64,000 bases of DNA, taken from assembly GCF_004570875.1 (NCBI RefSeq), contig NZ_SPQK01000007.1, positions 62,001 to 126,000 of the forward strand, written 5' to 3'. Below, piece by piece: positions 42,036-59,291 of this stretch (position 1 is its first letter; every line of letters begins with the position of its first letter). The DNA comes from Blastococcus sp. CT_GayMR16. Its GTDB lineage: Bacteria; Actinomycetota; Actinomycetes; Mycobacteriales; Geodermatophilaceae. The translations under genes were made by a program, and so were the position numbers. The notes beneath the pieces were generated by a model, which was not told the DNA's origin, did not search any database, and saw only the letters and a list, made by a program, of their open reading frames with translations.

Positions 42036-42737
42036 ATGGGAATCGACTACACCAAGCGGCCCTCGGCAGGGGGAGGCGGAGATCCCTCGGGCGGGAGCGG
42101 TCAGGTGAACCTGAGCAAGGTCACCCTGACCAAGAGCGCGCCACGGGTGTCGCTGACCAAGAGCGGGGCGGCCACCGGAGAGCTGCGCGTCAACCTCAAC
42201 TGGAACGCCCGGCCGGCGGCCCCCGCCGGCGGCGGGTTCCTCAAGCGGATGGCCGCTGCTGCGCAGAGCGGTATCGACCTCGACCTCGCCTGCCTCTACG
42301 AGTTCACCGACGGCTCGAAGGGCGTCGTCCAGGCGCTCGGCAACGCCTTCGCCTCGAAGAACCAGGGCGGTTCGCCGATCGTCAGCCTCGACGGCGATGA
42401 CCGGTCAGGGACCAACACCGCCGGCGAGAACCTGCGCATCGACCTGTCCCGGGTGAACGAGATCCGGCGCATCCTGGTCTTCGCGTTCATCTACCAGGGC
42501 GTCCCGAACTGGGCCGCGGCCGACGGCGTCGTGACGATGTACCCGGCGAACGGGGCGCCGATCGAGGTCCGCCTGGACGAGTCGGACCCCAAGGCACCGC
42601 TGTGCGCGATCGCGCTGCTGACGAACACGGGCAACGACCTGTCGGTGAACCGCGAGGTGCGCTACATCCACGGCGGCCAGGACGTCCTCGACAAGGCCTA
42701 CGGATGGGGAATGCAGTGGGCGGCCGGTCGTAAGTAG
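42036..42737 (+). CDS. TerA-like TerD-superfamily protein
   Basis: A 233-residue protein starting MGIDYTKRPSAGGGGDPSGG. A Gly/Ser-rich start is followed by strands VNLSKVTLTK and RVSLTKSG, then SGIDLDLACLYEFTDGSKGV, SLDGDDRSGTNTAGENLRIDL and RRILVFAFIYQGVPNW. DLDLACLYE and the GDDRSG/GEN segments correspond to the acidic calcium loops of TerD, in the version seen in TerA. It stands alone after the DUF475 terminator and converges on the terF gene with a 16-base gap. Confidence 0.88.
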   Translation: MGIDYTKRPSAGGGGDPSGGSGQVNLSKVTLTKSAPRVSLTKSGAATGELRVNLNWNARPAAPAGGGFLKRMAAAAQSGIDLDLACLYEFTDGSKGVVQALGNAFASKNQGGSPIVSLDGDDRSGTNTAGENLRIDLSRVNEIRRILVFAFIYQGVPNWAAADGVVTMYPANGAPIEVRLDESDPKAPLCAIALLTNTGNDLSVNREVRYIHGGQDVLDKAYGWGMQWAAGRK

Positions 42738-42753: not shown

Positions 42754-44148
42754 TCAGTGCGGGGGTAGCAGGCCCCGCTCCCTGGCCAGGACGAGCCAGC
42801 CCGGGTACTCCGTCATGAGCAGGTCGAACAGCTCGTCGTCGCTCACCTGCGTCGGGTCCTCGACGCTGAAGAAGTCGGCGTTGTCGATGAACCTGCCGCC
42901 CATGTCGTCGAGCTCCTCGAGGAAGCGGAACTCCCGGGACCCTCCCGACGGAGAGCCGCCGCCCCCGAAGAAGCCACGCCGACGGCCACCACCGCCGCTG
43001 CCGAGCGCCCGGGAGGACTTGCCGATGGCCATGAACTGCCAGAACAGGGGCTCGTAGCTCGACGACCGGACCTGCTCGCGGGCGGCGTCCTCGTCGAAGG
43101 TCGCGCCGTCGGTGACGAACATGACGTAGACCGGGAACTGGTCGAGGTGCGGGCCGTTGCGCGGGGTATCGGCCCCGAAGTAGTGCCTGCGGATGAGCTT
43201 CATCGCGGCCGCGTAGTTGGTGCTGCCCTCCAGGGGGTGCCGCCGGAGGACGTCGGCGGTGTACTGCCGGACGTTCGAGAGGTTCATCGACTCGACCTGG
43301 TGACCGGAGCCCCCGAACAGGAACGTGTCGACCTCACCGTCGTCGTCGAAGCGCAGGCCGAGAGCCAGGATCCGTTCGGCGAGCTGCTGGATCTTCCCGG
43401 ACCGGTAGAGGTTGGCCATCGAGCCGCTGATGTCGAGGCACAGCGCCACCCGTGCGGTGTGCTGACCCAGGCCCCGCTTCTCCAGGCTGATGGCGGCCTT
43501 CTTGACCAGGCTCACGAGCTGCGGTGCTTCGGTGGCGGCCCGCTTCTCCAGCGAGATCTGCTTCTGCTTCTTCAACGACACGGACGACGGCGCGGGGGTC
43601 GCCGGGGTCGGCGTGGCAGCGGCGGGCGCGGCCGTGGGCTCGTCGTCCACGCTGATGCCGAAGTCGGTCGCCAGTCCCGCGAGGCCGGAGGCGTAGCCCT
43701 GACCCACCGCCCGGAACTTCCACTGCCCGTTCCGGCGATAGAGCTCGCCGAAGAGGAAGGCCGTCTCCGTGGTCGCATCGCTGATGTCGAACCGCGCGAT
43801 CTCGGCGTTGCCGGCGACGTCGGTCAACCGCAGGTGCAACCCGGGAATGTGTCCGAAGGTGCCGTTGCCGACGCTGGCCGCGACCACGACCTTCTCGATC
43901 TCCTCCGGGATGTCCGAGAGATCGACCTCGACCGAGTCCTCCCGTGCCGCCCCGGCGGCGTGCCGGACGCTTCCCTCAGCGCTCCGCGGCTGGTTGTAGA
44001 AGACGAAGTCGTTGTCGGACCGGACCTTGCCGGACGACGTCAGGAGCAGCGCGGACGCGTCGACCTCGACGTCGGAGGACCAGCCCAGCGTTGCTCGCAC
44101 CCGCGCTGTGGACACCGGCAGGTTCGAGCCCTTGCTCATCGTCGTCAT
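42754..44148 (-). CDS. TerF-like protein: TerD domain plus vWA domain
   Basis: A 464-residue fusion. Residues 1-165 are a TerD domain ([44 protein letters not shown]). A linker rich in Ala/Pro has two copies of a SL.K...ISLEK motif. The von Willebrand A domain follows ([31 protein letters not shown]) with an intact metal-ion-dependent adhesion site. In the TerD part the first calcium aspartate is changed (EVDASA rather than DLDASA) and the GDN...GDDE loop is lost. It lies 53 bases after the HAD gene and probably ends the metabolic operon. The start could also be the ATG at 44139. Confidence 0.92.
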
Positions 44149-44201
44149 GCCGCGCATCGTGCCAGGACCGTCCCCGGCCGGGCCCCGCGCCGGCGCTCCT
44201 G

Positions 44202-45068
44202 TCAGGCGCGCCTGCCGGCGGTCGTCGTCGTACCGGACACCTGGCCGACCCACGCGCGGACGATCTCGGCCGCGCCCGCGTGTCCCGGGGCGTCGGTGAC
44301 CGTCACCTGTGGCCAGGGCGGGGCTCCCGAGCGGGTGATCTCGCTGCCCGCGGGGACCCACCCGGAATCGGCCAGCTCGAGCATCTCGGCGTCCAGCCAC
44401 GTGTCGCCGGCAGCCAGCAGGGTCGGGACCTCGCCGAGTTCGTCGGTCAGGCGGGCGCGGACGTAGCCGATGGCGTGGGCCTTGTGCAGTGCGTCGGGGA
44501 GCACGTACACCTTGCTTCCCTGGTGGGCGACCCGCCACGACCCAGGGACCAGTGCGGACGCGAGCTCGTCGACGTGATCGGCGGTGAACCGGTCGGGGTC
44601 GACGATCGCGTAGCAGAACTGGTCGTCGGCGGTGTGGACGCGCAGCGCAGTTCCCTCGGTGACCAGCGCGTCGAGCAGGGCCCGGACCTCCGCGACCGGC
44701 GCGCACTCCCGGAGGCGGTGAGTGGTGGTGGCGGCCCAGACCTGGTCGACCCGTCCGTCCTCGAGCACCACCCCGCCGGAACTGGCGATCAGGAACCGCG
44801 GCGTGAACGGCAGGTCGATGCGCTGCACCTGGCGCACGGTGCGGGTCGTCGTCGGCACGATCGTGAGCGTGGCGGCGGGCAGCCGGGCGAGCTGTGCCAG
44901 CTCGTCCCGCACGACGTCCGCCATCTCGCTGATGACCCGCCCGTCCAGCGCCTCGACGACGGACCGGGGGAGCGCGCCGCCGAGCTGGGCGGTCGCCCGG
45001 GGGCTGAAGATCAGCGTGCGGTCGAGGTCGGTCGTCACCATGACCGGCCCGGGAGCAGGCCCGGTCAC
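44202..45068 (-). CDS. HAD-family phosphatase of the Ter module
   Basis: A 288-residue haloacid-dehalogenase hydrolase. The nucleophile motif is VTTDLDRTLIF, a conserved lysine lies in LHKAHAIGYV, and the acidic motif is LAAGDTWLDAEML. HAD enzymes of this type are part of the Ter-linked metabolic operon described in comparative genomics by Anantharaman, Iyer and Aravind, where they are predicted to dephosphorylate a nucleotide-like intermediate. The GTG start overlaps the StiP gene stop by four bases (GTGA). Confidence 0.88.
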   Translation of the reverse strand: MTGPAPGPVMVTTDLDRTLIFSPRATAQLGGALPRSVVEALDGRVISEMADVVRDELAQLARLPAATLTIVPTTTRTVRQVQRIDLPFTPRFLIASSGGVVLEDGRVDQVWAATTTHRLRECAPVAEVRALLDALVTEGTALRVHTADDQFCYAIVDPDRFTADHVDELASALVPGSWRVAHQGSKVYVLPDALHKAHAIGYVRARLTDELGEVPTLLAAGDTWLDAEMLELADSGWVPAGSEITRSGAPPWPQVTVTDAPGHAGAAEIVRAWVGQVSGTTTTAGRRA

Positions 45069-51498: not shown

Positions 51499-52725
51499 AT
51501 GTCTGAGCTGGACCTCGGCTCGACCTCCACCCCCAACGTCGCGACGTCCGGTGCGGCGCCCGCCTCCGGCGCGCTCGTCCTCGCGCCGCCGCAGGCGGTC
51601 GTCGTCGTTGCGGCCGAACAGGCCTCCGATGCGGTTCCGCTCGACGACGCCAAGCAGGTCGAGCTGCGGAGCAAGGCCACCGCCTTCGTCTCCGATCTCG
51701 TCTCGCTCGACACGAAGTCGCCGGCGTTCGCGGAGAAGGTCGCCTCGATCACCACGCTGGGTGACCGGGAGATGCGGTCGTCGGCTGCGGTGTCGAACCG
51801 GATGCTGGAGCGCCCGGCGGCGGCGATGGGGAAGGGCAAGGGGGCGGATGCGCAGACCCGCGTCTCGAACACGCTCGTCGATCTCCGGACCACCGTCACC
51901 GACCTCGACCCCAATCGGGCGGACCTGACCGGCGTCAAGCGGGTCCTCAAGTGGCTGCCCGGCGGCGACAAGATCGACCGGTACTTCGCCAAGTACCAGT
52001 CGGCGCAGTCGCACCTCAACACGATCATCAAGGCACTGGACTCCGGTCAGGACGAGCTGCGGAAGGACAACGCAGCCATCGAGACCGAGAAGGCCAACAT
52101 GTGGTCGATGATGGGGAAGCTGCGGGAGTACAACGAGCTCGCGGCAGCCCTCGATGCAGCGCTCGAGAACAAGGTGGCCGAGTTGGAGGCCGCGGGTCGG
52201 GCCGAGGACGCGAACGTAGTCCGGTCCGACGCGCTGTTCCCCGTGCGTCAGCGACGGCAGGACATCATGACCCAGATGGCGGTCGCCGTTCAGGGCTACA
52301 TGGCGCTCGACCTCATCCGGCGGAACAACCTGGAGCTCATCCGCGGCGTGGACCGGGCACAGACCACAACGATCGCCGCCCTGCGGACCGCGGTCATCGT
52401 CTCGCAGGCCCTCAGCCGCCAGAAGCTGGTGCTCGACCAGATCACCGCGCTGAACACCGTCACGTCGAACCTCATCGAGTCGACGTCGGAGCAGCTGAAG
52501 ATCCAGGGCGGGCAGATCAACCAGCAGGCCGCCTCGTCCACGATCGACGTCGCCAAGCTCCAGGCGGCCTTCGACAACGTGTTCGCCACGATGGACGCCG
52601 TGGACACCTTCCGGGCGCAGGCCGTCGACTCGATGGCCCAGACGGTCCAGGCACTCGAGGGTCAGATCGAGCGGGCGAAGCCCTACCTGGAGCGCGCCCG
52701 CCGGAACGAGATCGCCGGGAACTGA
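51499..52725 (+). CDS. TelA family toxic anion resistance protein
   Basis: A 408-residue, mostly helical coiled-coil-rich protein starting MSELDLGSTSTPNVATSG with GAGGAG nine bases before the ATG. TelA marks are IDRYFAKYQSAQSHLNTIIK, LRKDNAAIETEKANMWSMMG, VRQRRQDIMTQMAVAVQGYM and LDLIRRNNLELIRGVDRAQT with TIAALRTAVIVSQALSRQ. Members of this family are linked to tellurite and envelope-stress resistance and are often paired with XpaC or TerD proteins. It heads a four-gene operon in which the later genes overlap. Confidence 0.93.
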   Translation: MSELDLGSTSTPNVATSGAAPASGALVLAPPQAVVVVAAEQASDAVPLDDAKQVELRSKATAFVSDLVSLDTKSPAFAEKVASITTLGDREMRSSAAVSNRMLERPAAAMGKGKGADAQTRVSNTLVDLRTTVTDLDPNRADLTGVKRVLKWLPGGDKIDRYFAKYQSAQSHLNTIIKALDSGQDELRKDNAAIETEKANMWSMMGKLREYNELAAALDAALENKVAELEAAGRAEDANVVRSDALFPVRQRRQDIMTQMAVAVQGYMALDLIRRNNLELIRGVDRAQTTTIAALRTAVIVSQALSRQKLVLDQITALNTVTSNLIESTSEQLKIQGGQINQQAASSTIDVAKLQAAFDNVFATMDAVDTFRAQAVDSMAQTVQALEGQIERAKPYLERARRNEIAGN

Positions 52726-52749
52726 CCGGCGGCCCGCTCATGACACGGC

Positions 52750-53274
52750 ATGCTGTGGAGGCAGGACGAGGAAGGTGGGAAGGCCGTGGCGTGGTTCCGA
52801 CGGGCCGTGCCGTCCCCTCCTACGGCCGCCGCACCTGCGCCTGACGCCGGGGACAGCCCCGAGGCGCTGCGGGCGTCGATCGTGGCGGTCAACCGCATGA
52901 TCAACAGCAACGCGGGGCGGCTGCCCCTGAGGGCGGTCGTCGCCGCCCGGCGCATCACCGACGTGCTGGCCGAGATCGTGAACACCTCCGACGTCCGACC
53001 CCTGGACGTCTACGCCACGATCTCCGTCCGTGGCGCGGTGAACGACTACCTGCCGACGACGCTGCGCACCTTTCTCGCCGTCGACAAGGACCTGGTGGCC
53101 GTGCAGCGGCCGTCCGGGTTCACGCCGACCGAGTCGTTGATGGAGCAGTTGGACGCACTGGAGGGCTCAGCCTTCGCCGTTCTGCAGGCTGCCCAGGCGC
53201 AGGATGTCGACGCGTTGATGACCCAGGGCAGCTTCCTGCGCACGAAATTCTCCGGATCGGACCTCGACCTCTGA
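52750..53274 (+). CDS. Hypothetical TelA partner, possibly XpaC-like
   Basis: A 174-residue soluble, helical protein 24 bases after telA. Its middle reads LPLRAVVAARRITDVLAEIV and TISVRGAVNDYLPTTLRTFL. The YLPTTL stretch and the position next to telA recall XpaC proteins, which pair with TelA in other bacteria, but similarity is too weak to be sure. A GTG at 52786 with AAGG before it may be the real start, which would remove twelve residues. The stop overlaps the next ATG by one base. Confidence 0.65.
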   Translation: MLWRQDEEGGKAVAWFRRAVPSPPTAAAPAPDAGDSPEALRASIVAVNRMINSNAGRLPLRAVVAARRITDVLAEIVNTSDVRPLDVYATISVRGAVNDYLPTTLRTFLAVDKDLVAVQRPSGFTPTESLMEQLDALEGSAFAVLQAAQAQDVDALMTQGSFLRTKFSGSDLDL

Positions 53275-53837
53275 TGGCAGTCATGAGTCGGGGCGCGAAC
53301 GTGCCCCTCACCCGCGAGATCCCCGGTCTGAAGCACCTCGTGATCGGGGTGGCATGGAACGCCGGTGCCGAGCCGGTGCTCCAGGACAACCTGGTCATGG
53401 CCGCGATCCTGTGCAACGAGTCGAACAAGGCGCTCTCGGCCGAGCACTTCGTCTTCTTCAACCAGTTGACGTCGCCGGACCTGTCGGTGAGCCAGATCGA
53501 GAAGGCGCTGGCGGGCGACCAGGAGCAGGTCGAGATCGACCTCCCCGACGTGCCGCCCGAGGTGTCCCGCATCGCCTTCGTGCTCTACGTGAACGAAGGG
53601 ACGGCGGCGCGGCGGACCCTGGGCCAGCTCCGCCAGCTGAGCGTCGCCGTGCGGGACGCGACCGACAACCGTGAACTGGTCCGCTCCGAGAACCTGGCGC
53701 CTGCCCTGTCGGCCGAGACGGCACTCGTCCTGGCCGAGGTGTACCGCAACCGGTCGGACTGGAAGTTCAAGGTCGTGGGCGAGGGCTACGCGAGCGGGAT
53801 CGCCGGCATCGCGTCGGACTACGGCCTGCCCCTGTGA
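53274..53837 (+). CDS. Divergent TerD-fold protein lacking calcium loops
   Basis: A 187-residue TerD-fold protein: MAVMSRGANVPLTREIPG, then HFVFFNQLTSPDLSVSQIEK, VEIDLPDVPPEVSRIAFVLY and YRNRSDWKFKVVGEGYASGI. The overall fold is clear, but the FDLDASA stretch is replaced by PVLQDNLVMAAILC and the GDN...GDDE loop by a short SQIEKALAGDQEQ. The SLSK/SLTK opening is also changed. It is unlikely to bind calcium as the other TerDs do. It overlaps both neighbours (TGATG upstream, GTGA downstream), so it is made together with TelA and the TerA-like protein. Confidence 0.9.
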   Translation: MAVMSRGANVPLTREIPGLKHLVIGVAWNAGAEPVLQDNLVMAAILCNESNKALSAEHFVFFNQLTSPDLSVSQIEKALAGDQEQVEIDLPDVPPEVSRIAFVLYVNEGTAARRTLGQLRQLSVAVRDATDNRELVRSENLAPALSAETALVLAEVYRNRSDWKFKVVGEGYASGIAGIASDYGLPL

Positions 53838-54796
53838 CGAGCCGCGACCCCTCCTCGGCACGTCAGCGCACCGATCTCGGCTGGATCCGGCATCGGACCC
53901 TCCGCCACGGGCCTCCCACCGCCTCGACCCATCCCTCGACGTCGGCGGTCGCGGACCTCATCGCGGGCCGGCTGCCGCATCCACCCCGGGCGCGTTCCCA
54001 CTCCGCGGACCTCGACCTGTCGGCGCCTGCCGCGCCGGCTGCTCCGGCACCGGCGGCGGCAGCTCCTCCGGCACCCGCCGCGACATCGGGATCGCTGGAC
54101 CTCTTCCCGTCGGCGCCGGCCGCTGCGCCCGCACCCCCGGAGCCGTCGTCCGGCTCGGATCTCTCGGGCGCCCCGGCCACTCCTTCGGGCTCCCGGCCGG
54201 CGTCGGGTCCACCGGCCAGGCCCCCGGTGCCGAGGCTCGGCCCCCGCGGCCGCGTCATCCTGACGCCACTGGACCCCACGGTCACCCTCAACCGGCTGCA
54301 GAGCGGCGTGGGGGCCCTGACCGTCGAAGCCGTGTGCTCGCCCGCCGTCGGCGACCTCGCCATCGGGGCGCTGTACGAGTTGACGGACGGCGCGTCCTCG
54401 ATCGTGCAGCGGACGACGGGCCTCGTCGCGGGGCCACCCCGTTCGCGGAGCCCGATCCTCACCGCGTCCCGCGAGGAGTTCGAACAGATCCACGTCGATC
54501 TGCGGCAGACCCGAACCTTGCAACGGCTGCTGGTCTATGCATTCTCCGCATCGGGACGCCCGCTGCAGTGGGGGGGAACCCTGGTCACGCGCACTTTCGG
54601 CGGGGCTCGCGTGGAACTCCCGCTGGACTTCGGCGGCCACCACGGCCCGGTCGCCCTGATGTCGCTCTACAACATCGACGGTGAGTTCGTCCTGCGAGCA
54701 GAGGGCGAGCAGGTGGCCGGCGCCGCGCGGGACGTCTCGCGGTCGTTCGGGTACGACCGGATCACGTGGGCCGACCACTGGATGCCCGTCGTCTGA
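53834..54796 (+). CDS. TerA-like protein with long Ala/Pro linker
   Basis: A 320-residue protein. Residues 1-55 contain a basic segment, 55-135 are a low-complexity Ala/Pro/Ser linker, and the C-terminal 185 residues are a TerA/TerD-like domain: VTLNRLQSGVGALTVEAVCS, GDLAIGALYELTDGASSIVQ, QIHVDLRQTRTLQRLLVYAF and VALMSLYNIDGEFVLRAEGE. The usual DLDLGCLYE is changed to DLAIGALYE and the GDDRSG loop is missing, so the acidic site is degraded. The GTG overlaps the stop of the divergent TerD gene by four bases. It ends the telA operon. Confidence 0.85.
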   Translation: MTSRDPSSARQRTDLGWIRHRTLRHGPPTASTHPSTSAVADLIAGRLPHPPRARSHSADLDLSAPAAPAAPAPAAAAPPAPAATSGSLDLFPSAPAAAPAPPEPSSGSDLSGAPATPSGSRPASGPPARPPVPRLGPRGRVILTPLDPTVTLNRLQSGVGALTVEAVCSPAVGDLAIGALYELTDGASSIVQRTTGLVAGPPRSRSPILTASREEFEQIHVDLRQTRTLQRLLVYAFSASGRPLQWGGTLVTRTFGGARVELPLDFGGHHGPVALMSLYNIDGEFVLRAEGEQVAGAARDVSRSFGYDRITWADHWMPVV

Positions 54797-58062: not shown

Positions 58063-58344
58063 ATGGCGCTCATCTATCCCGTCCTGGCCGATTCCCCGGA
58101 GCCGGAGGAGGGGTCGACGCCCGACGTCGCCGAACTCGCCGCAGACCTCTCCGACCAGTGGCTGGTCGAGGTCGCGGTCGGTGAGGACGGTGACGACGCC
58201 TGCTTCGGCCCGCTCGCCGCCGGCATGGCGTGGGATCTCGCCGTCGAGATCGTCGACAAGCGGCCCGAGTGGACGGTGTCGGTGGTCCCGCTCTACATCG
58301 CGGAGCCCGCCGACCAGATCATCGCCCTCTTCGAGGAGGACTAG
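58063..58344 (+). CDS. Small acidic hypothetical protein
   Basis: A 93-residue, strongly acidic protein starting MALIYPVLADSPEPEEGSTP and containing LSDQWLVEVAVGEDGDDACF and VVPLYIAEPADQIIALFEED. No family is recognised. Its TAG stop falls inside the ACTAGC target of the downstream IS element, so the insertion left the protein intact. Confidence 0.65.
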   Translation: MALIYPVLADSPEPEEGSTPDVAELAADLSDQWLVEVAVGEDGDDACFGPLAAGMAWDLAVEIVDKRPEWTVSVVPLYIAEPADQIIALFEED

Positions 58345-58345
58345 C
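58340..58345. repeat. IS target-site duplication, left copy
   Basis: ACTAGC immediately before the left end of the IS element; the identical hexamer stands at 59395-59400. A 6-bp duplication centred on CTAG is typical of IS481-family insertion. Confidence 0.93.
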
Positions 58346-59291
58346 TGTAGTGACCTGAGAGGTTGGTGACGCGGCTGGCGGGAGGTCGGCCGCCGAGAGC
58401 GGTGTGGCCGCGGTGATGGTTATAGCGGTGCAGCCAGGCGGGGTAGGTCTGAGCGCGCTCGTTGTCGCTGCCGTAGGCGTCCGCGTAGGCCCATTCCTCG
58501 GTCAGTGTTCGGTGGAAGCGTTCGACCTTGCCGTTGGTCTGCGGCCGGTAGGGCCGGGTCCGCGTGTGCGCGATCTCGCTCAATGCGTCGCGGAACGGGT
58601 GTGAGCGGTAGCAGGCGCCGTTGTCGGTGAGCACCCGCGTGACGGTGATTCCGCAGCTAGTGAAGTAGGCGTTGGCTCGGGTCCAGAAGGCCGCGGCGGT
58701 CTCCTTGCGCTCGTCGGTGAGGAGCTCGGAGTAGGCCAATCGGGAGTGGTCGTCCAGGGCGGTGTGCAAGAAGACGTAGCCCAGCCCGGCGCGGTGCCGG
58801 TGGGGACGGGCCGCGCGGCCGTGGATCTTCCAACCGCCCCCGTCGGGAATCCGGCCGAGCTTCTTCACGTCCAGGTGCACCAGGTCCCCGGGGGCGGCGT
58901 GCTCGTAGCGGCGCACGACCCGTGTGGTGGTGCGGTCGAGCCAGGCCAGTCGGGCAAGGCGATAGCGAGACAACACCCGGTGCACCGTGGATGGGTGCAG
59001 GCCGAGCAGGAAACCGATCCGGGCCGGACCCCAACGGCGGGTCACCCGGACCTTGATGATCCGCCGCTCGAGCCGGGTCGGGGTCCGGCGCGGGCTGTGC
59101 TGAGGACGGCTGGAGCGGTCATACATGCCGGCCGGGCCTTGCCGCCGGTAGCGGCCGGCCCACCGGGCGGCGGTGGTCGCCGAGACCTGGAACCGCTCGG
59201 CCGCGCGCCGCAGCGGCCAGTTCTGATCGACGACACAGCGAGCCAGCTGCAGGCGCCCCCGCGGAGTCAGCAGGGCATTAGCGTGGGACAC
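58341..59291 (-). CDS. IS481-family transposase
   Basis: A 316-residue DDE transposase. The N-terminal helix-turn-helix reads NWPLRRAAERFQVSATTAAR, followed by a second HTH. The catalytic triad appears as D in DLVHLDVKKLGRIP, D in VLTDNGACYRSH and E in NGKVERFHRTLTEEWAY. The GTG at 59291 gives MSHANALLTPRGRLQLARCV. The frame is intact. The element supplies no stop codon of its own: the TAG at 58343-58341 lies in the target-site duplication. Confidence 0.95.
   Translation of the reverse strand: MSHANALLTPRGRLQLARCVVDQNWPLRRAAERFQVSATTAARWAGRYRRQGPAGMYDRSSRPQHSPRRTPTRLERRIIKVRVTRRWGPARIGFLLGLHPSTVHRVLSRYRLARLAWLDRTTTRVVRRYEHAAPGDLVHLDVKKLGRIPDGGGWKIHGRAARPHRHRAGLGYVFLHTALDDHSRLAYSELLTDERKETAAAFWTRANAYFTSCGITVTRVLTDNGACYRSHPFRDALSEIAHTRTRPYRPQTNGKVERFHRTLTEEWAYADAYGSDNERAQTYPAWLHRYNHHRGHTALGGRPPASRVTNLSGHYS

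Follow-up and report, generated by a model that had tools for sequence, protein, structure and literature searches.

We describe a four-gene module at positions 51499-54796 of a 64,000-nucleotide stretch of the Blastococcus sp. CT_GayMR16 genome (contig NZ_SPQK01000007.1; the whole stretch is called the window below). Its genes encode, in order, TelA, a helical protein that is probably XpaC-like, a TerD-like protein (TerDx) and a TerA-like protein (TerAx). Acidic residues of canonical TerD and TerA proteins are lost from TerDx and TerAx, and a short motif containing Leu-Asp-Leu (LDL) recurs on TelA, on the helical protein and in the linker of TerAx. Our best explanation is that the module is a conserved accessory part of the actinobacterial Ter system with a TerD/TerA paralogue pair; taken as a whole, we put the chances of that explanation at about even.

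The module is not peculiar to this genome. A query with the XpaC-like protein hit 44 genomes out of 297 from the class; a scan through named genomes supplied 32 loci for comparison, all actinobacterial and including Blastococcus, Klenkia, Cellulomonas and Micromonospora. The order TelA–XpaC-like–TerDx–TerAx is kept in 32/32 of these further loci as far as the contigs extend (in L062 and L067 a contig end truncates TerAx, and in L059 the gene is broken past the linker), and so chance is ruled out. The window's XpaC-like and TerDx genes overlap by 1 nucleotide (TGATG) and its TerDx and TerAx genes by 4 (GTGA); the same overlaps are seen again in many of the other loci. An initial annotation of this DNA had proposed a distinct module whose genes are all coupled by overlaps. 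That coupling holds for the last three genes and not for TelA, which is separated from the XpaC-like gene by 60 nucleotides, or by 24 if an upstream ATG at 52750 is used. The distinctness of the module is well supported, as order, acid loss and often the overlaps recur at other loci and TerDx has its own tree branch; the same gene order with acid loss, which it had suggested looking for elsewhere, is present in the 32 actinobacterial loci. The shared LDL motif had gone unmentioned, and it points to another way of organizing the module, in which TelA, the helical protein and the TerAx linker would dock to one another.

Acid loss in TerDx and TerAx

TerDx scores 162 bits with the Pfam TerD profile (PF02342), where the cut-off is 25.3, and it matches S. 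coelicolor TerD (3IBZ) in a phmmer search (E 4e-37). We aligned 32 TerDx sequences, the window's included, with 45 canonical TerDs, two solved structures among them, and compared their acidic positions in 3IBZ numbering. D40 and D42 of the FDLDAS element and D148 are acidic in 100% of canonical TerDs and in 0% of TerDx. Four further positions that are always acidic in canonical TerD are rarely so in TerDx (D88, 3%; E147, 6%; D78 of GDN, 16%; D30, 19%), and E83 and E85 are deleted. Three acidic loops are absent from TerDx; D87 and E89 of GDDE persist as GDxE (D82 and E84 in window numbering), and loop 2 is therefore shortened, not entirely lost. E152, E159 and D186 are retained as well, N39, the substitute for D40, is kept in 30/32 TerDx, and the rest of the protein is well conserved, with a mean column identity of 70%.

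TerAx is homologous to TerA, an assignment that relies on profile comparison and on the fold of a predicted model. A single TerAx sequence has no match in Pfam, and the TerAx domain matches canonical TerD profiles alone only marginally; against canonical TerA, hhalign gives a probability of 99% and E 5e-18 over 192 columns. In the AlphaFold model, residues 1-130 have predicted local distance difference test (pLDDT) scores of about 50-70 (disordered) and residues 131-320 of about 95. The C-terminal beta-sandwich has 3IBZ, 2KXT and 2QZ7 as its top three Foldseek matches, and the model superposes on 3IBZ with Z 14.8 and a root-mean-square deviation of 2.8 over 146 residues. Between this domain and an N-terminal motif, RxDLPWLRxR, that is almost invariant among orthologues lies a linker of Pro, Ala and Ser that is predicted to be disordered. 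The N-terminal motif seems to bear a superficial resemblance to the FtsZ C-terminal peptide. Compared with 18 canonical TerA proteins, all 27 TerAx lack the second D of DLDL and the three DGDD acids (D83, D119, D121 and D122); D219 is lost too, E207 and E177 are mostly kept, and 24/27 retain the first D of DLDL.

These comparisons bear out much of what the initial annotation had read from a single sequence. It had described a TerD-like product that keeps its fold with FDLDASA replaced, as we find, and two changed TerD loops; both changes stand, and to them must be added the third acidic loop (E147/D148), which it had not listed, and the GDxE retained in loop 2. Its account of TerAx, with DLAIGALYE for DLDLGCLYE and no GDDRSG, stands, and the missing second D of DLDL and missing GDD loop extend to all TerAx compared. 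It had also held that acids supplied from other positions would speak against a calcium-independent module, and here the result is divided: the canonical acids are lost, and new conserved ones have appeared, which comes close to that case.

We rejected the idea that TerDx and TerAx are decayed pseudogenes, because the canonical acids are lost in 32/32 TerDx and 27/27 TerAx and the pair is conserved across loci. By the pattern of conservation, they are a paralogous pair under selection. In a tree of 111 TerD-type proteins, a branch with 100/99 support separates TerDx and the distant L020 protein from the canonical TerDs. A second TerD group (OP type), which in a different family takes the operon position of TerDx (L007, L009-L012, L014, L016, L017, L019, L022, L027 and L032), sits on the canonical side on a long branch of its own. 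In the OP-type TerDs, too, GDN is missing and the GDDE loop is incomplete, so calcium-site erosion may have occurred twice beside TelA and an XpaC-like gene, a tentative conclusion given the long branches.

The title of structure 2KXT states that KP-TerD binds calcium. This, together with the joint conservation of the acids in canonical TerD and their joint loss in TerDx, marks the lost residues as putative calcium ligands, and calcium independence of TerDx and TerAx is plausible. An alternative is that the pair binds metal through relocated acids (E33, D38, D82, E84, E87 and E139 of TerDx, in window numbering), with a changed specificity. The newly conserved acids keep such a changed site among the readings: those listed are 97-100% conserved in TerDx, canonical TerD has none of E33, D38, E87 and E139, and E15 is likewise newly conserved. 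However, seven acids present in every canonical TerD disappear jointly, and a clustering of the new acids in three dimensions would be conjectural. We think this alternative unlikely. We give similarly little weight to the initial annotation's idea of a structural partner in mixed assemblies, on which TerDx and TerAx would be calcium-free subunits that co-assemble with neighboring canonical TerDs, diluting or capping calcium-driven assemblies, with LDL a separate matter. The retained TerD fold would suit it, and 24/32 loci have a canonical TerD, TerA or related gene within about 6 kb, which is compatible with co-assembly and says no more than that. But an interface between the pair and canonical TerD would be hypothetical, and the TelA and XpaC-like part, with its LDL, exists in TerD-free genomes, so the module has a logic of its own.

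The LDL motif and its bearers

The first bearer, TelA, is a coiled-coil protein of 408 amino acids (PF05816; Pfam match of 297 bits, above the cut-off). The second is harder to place. AlphaFold models five helices at residues 25-155 with a low-confidence tail, the ends being disordered, and neither Pfam, NCBIfam nor a fold search of the PDB returned a relative. Pfam XpaC (PF10112) matches neither the protein nor its orthologues nor its membrane-anchored relatives, the wider relatives having an N-terminal membrane segment by our reading of their sequences. A profile of the wide family does match Pfam-recognized XpaC proteins weakly (E 1e-4, score 34.5, probability 57%), co-linear over 130 columns, where 20 column-shuffled controls scored at most 13.6. 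Two of the XpaC proteins in this comparison adjoin TelA. The weak profile match, the gene context and a common core sequence suggest that the protein is probably related to XpaC, and we call it XpaC-like, not XpaC.

All three bearers share the motif. TelA has L[DN]L at its N-terminus in 30/30 readable orthologues (strict LDL in 28), and the XpaC-like protein ends in S-D-L-x-L in 32/32, SDLDL in 30 of these, with one P after it in L078. Each TerAx linker holds one to seven copies, typically as S-LDL-S-A-P. Across 27 linkers there are 106 LDL, against a mean of 1.6 and a maximum of 7 in 2000 shuffles; LDL is the most enriched tripeptide in them, and 13 different DNA words encode it. In distant relatives the TelA motif is C-terminal instead of N-terminal: among 30 TelA loci from across the class, L[DNET][LI] is N-terminal in 10, C-terminal in 10 and at both ends in none. 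The motif is present on TelA in 16/16 cases with an adjacent XpaC-like gene versus 4/14 without one (Fisher p 3e-5, uncorrected for phylogeny), and in L039 TelA, the XpaC-like protein and the TerA-like protein are all without it. A sequence that stays constant while its position shifts, in linkers that cannot be aligned, is typical of a short docking motif. The XpaC-like tail and the TerAx linker are predicted to be disordered, so the motifs there would be accessible.

We considered TerDx as the sole receptor for LDL and rejected it, as the motif persists in TerD-free genomes; the receptor would most likely lie in the TelA/XpaC-like pair, which is common to most bearers. It is very improbable that LDL is a motif of the beta-sliding-clamp type (QL[SD]LF) tying the module to replication or repair. 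LDLF does occur in 10 of the 106 linker motifs, the second copy in the window among them, but the conserved Q is absent before LDL in all 106 copies, the residue after it is mostly S, and the C-terminal SDLDL tail has no F. We therefore set clamp binding aside. Functionless low-complexity drift with tandem DNA duplication in a GC-rich linker, to which near-identical tandem units in some linkers (L064) might point, is scarcely credible given a 69-fold excess over composition in 27/27 proteins, codons and spacers that vary, and the motif's presence at one site each in two unrelated proteins.

Other repeats occur elsewhere in the window. The linker of a TerF-like protein (TerD plus vWA; 42754-44706, minus strand) and the N-terminus of TerA (42036-42737, plus strand) carry VSLxK / ISLEKR repeats, which differ from LDL and resemble the N-terminal strand of TerD; assembly by strand exchange is possible.

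A possible LDL-organized complex

Gene order, fold assignment, acid loss and the conserved motif are the observed part of our explanation; what we infer beyond these is that the module does without calcium, that LDL docks, which proteins form the receptor, and that envelope or metal stress is where the module acts. The explanation is a calcium-independent complex of TelA, the XpaC-like protein, TerDx and TerAx that is organized by LDL docking, a proposal we regard as evenly poised. The products of all four genes, the last three translationally coupled, would probably join in one complex, kept together by the shared motif [S/D]-L-D-L-[S/G] at the TelA terminus, the XpaC-like C-terminus and the repeated sites of the TerAx linker. 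TerAx would be a multivalent scaffold: its folded domain would form with TerDx a TerD-type assembly that does not require calcium, its LDL repeats would draw in multiple copies of a shared receptor, for which the TelA/XpaC-like pair is the likeliest candidate, and RxDLPWLRxR could serve as an anchor.

Several points weigh against this complex. Docking through LDL, like the placing of the receptor in the TelA/XpaC-like pair, is a proposal from sequence comparison. The retained D82 and E84 and the new conserved acids of TerDx may leave some metal binding in place. The co-occurrence counts for the TelA motif and the XpaC-like gene lack phylogenetic correction, one family (L102-L104 and L112) has LDL on the XpaC-like protein and none on TelA, and TerD-free genomes retain the motif on TelA or its neighbors. 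A broader reading, which we offer tentatively and would not yet bet on, is that LDL is a bacterial docking code. One TelA/XpaC-like surface would then read LDL both on its own partners and on exchangeable scaffolds, TerAx in Ter clusters and an AAA ATPase in PknG clusters, and TelA modules would plug into different stress systems.

As for the surroundings, the genome has nine TerD matches, six of them inside the window, and one copy of TelA. An S9-type peptidase gene downstream is not counted in the module: it adjoins only in the window and in Blastococcus loci, in a comparison whose scores are only indicative, the query being partly out of frame. An integrase-type transposase open reading frame (58341-59291, minus strand) lies about 3.5 kb downstream. 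The module is also found on a contig titled Candidatus Melainabacteria (L069 / L004) that groups with actinobacteria, and the title is probably a mislabel.

Table 1. Features of the TelA/XpaC-like/TerDx/TerAx module, in window coordinates
Feature	Position	Strand	Basis or remark
TelA gene	51499..52725	+	start (MSELDLG) internal to longer open reading frame
LDL motif, TelA N-terminus (MSELDLGST)	51508..51516	+	orthologue comparison
XpaC-like gene, 162 amino acids	52786..53274	+	GTG start
SDLDL tail of XpaC-like protein (...KFSGSDLDL)	53257..53271	+	orthologue comparison
TerDx gene	53274..53837	+	Pfam TerD 162 bits; acids lost 32/32; separate tree branch
DNLV (residues 38-41) replacing FDLD, putative calcium loop 1 lost	53385..53396	+	alignment
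Shortened loop SQIEKALAGDQE (residues 73-84) replacing EHTGDN...GEGDDE, loop 2; only D82 and E84 retained	53490..53525	+	alignment
ENLAPALSAE (residues 139-148) replacing DLSEDASTE, loop 3; canonical E147, D148 lost	53688..53717	+	alignment
TerAx gene	53834..54796	+	AlphaFold; Z 14.8 to 3IBZ; hhalign to TerA E 5e-18
TerAx conserved N-terminal motif RTDLGWIRHR	53867..53896	+	orthologue comparison
LDL motif 1, TerAx linker (SADLDLSAP)	54011..54019	+	linker comparison
LDL motif 2, TerAx linker (GSLDLFPS)	54095..54103	+	linker comparison
TerA/TerD-fold domain of TerAx, GDD loop deleted	54224..54793	+	hhalign, AlphaFold, Foldseek
DLAIGALYE replacing canonical TerA DLDLGCLYE	54353..54379	+	TerA alignment

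Relation to known systems

The mechanism of TelA and the Ter proteins is, to our knowledge, an old and unsolved problem. For the part that calcium plays in it, a conserved TerD/TerA pair that lacks the calcium acids serves as a natural control; a peptide motif common to three partners offers a handle on which of them interact. Should LDL be a docking code, TelA would be linked to the PknG-type clusters of other actinobacteria. What holds this little-studied stress system together may be such a code of peptides in place of calcium. The TerD, TerA, TelA and XpaC families are already known. The literature searched, to which the main comparative Ter survey (Anantharaman et al. 2012) did not belong, contained no report of the four-gene module with its LDL motif, and the novelty of the gene order is unproven.

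The closest known relatives of TerDx and TerAx are in the TerD family (PF02342; KP-TerD 2KXT, S. coelicolor TerD 3IBZ, SCO6318 2QZ7), with which they share fold, sequence family and ter cluster context; the canonical acidic calcium loops of that family are lost in all TerDx and TerAx examined. The canonical TerA encoded in the window is homologous to TerAx over the 192 aligned columns, whereas TerAx has the GDD loop deleted, DLDL altered and LDL repeats in an added N-terminal extension that is disordered. In Firmicutes, XpaC-TelA (YaaN) pairs such as lmo1966-lmo1967 and llmg_1115-1116 likewise set TelA beside a helical protein, one that shares a YLPTT..Y.L core with the XpaC-like protein, and have been reported for Listeria and Lactococcus in responses to cell-envelope stress (PMC12791056, PMC3139573). 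To such a pair the present module adds two TerD-fold proteins and an LDL motif common to the partners. In other actinobacteria, TelA and XpaC-like genes are adjacent and open clusters with AAA and PknG genes (L042, 8558-17609; L047, 7071-16651). LDL-type motifs occur there on TelA, on the AAA ATPase and, for L047, on the XpaC-like protein too. Where the present module has TerDx and TerAx, these clusters continue with genes for the AAA ATPase, a membrane protein and PknG.

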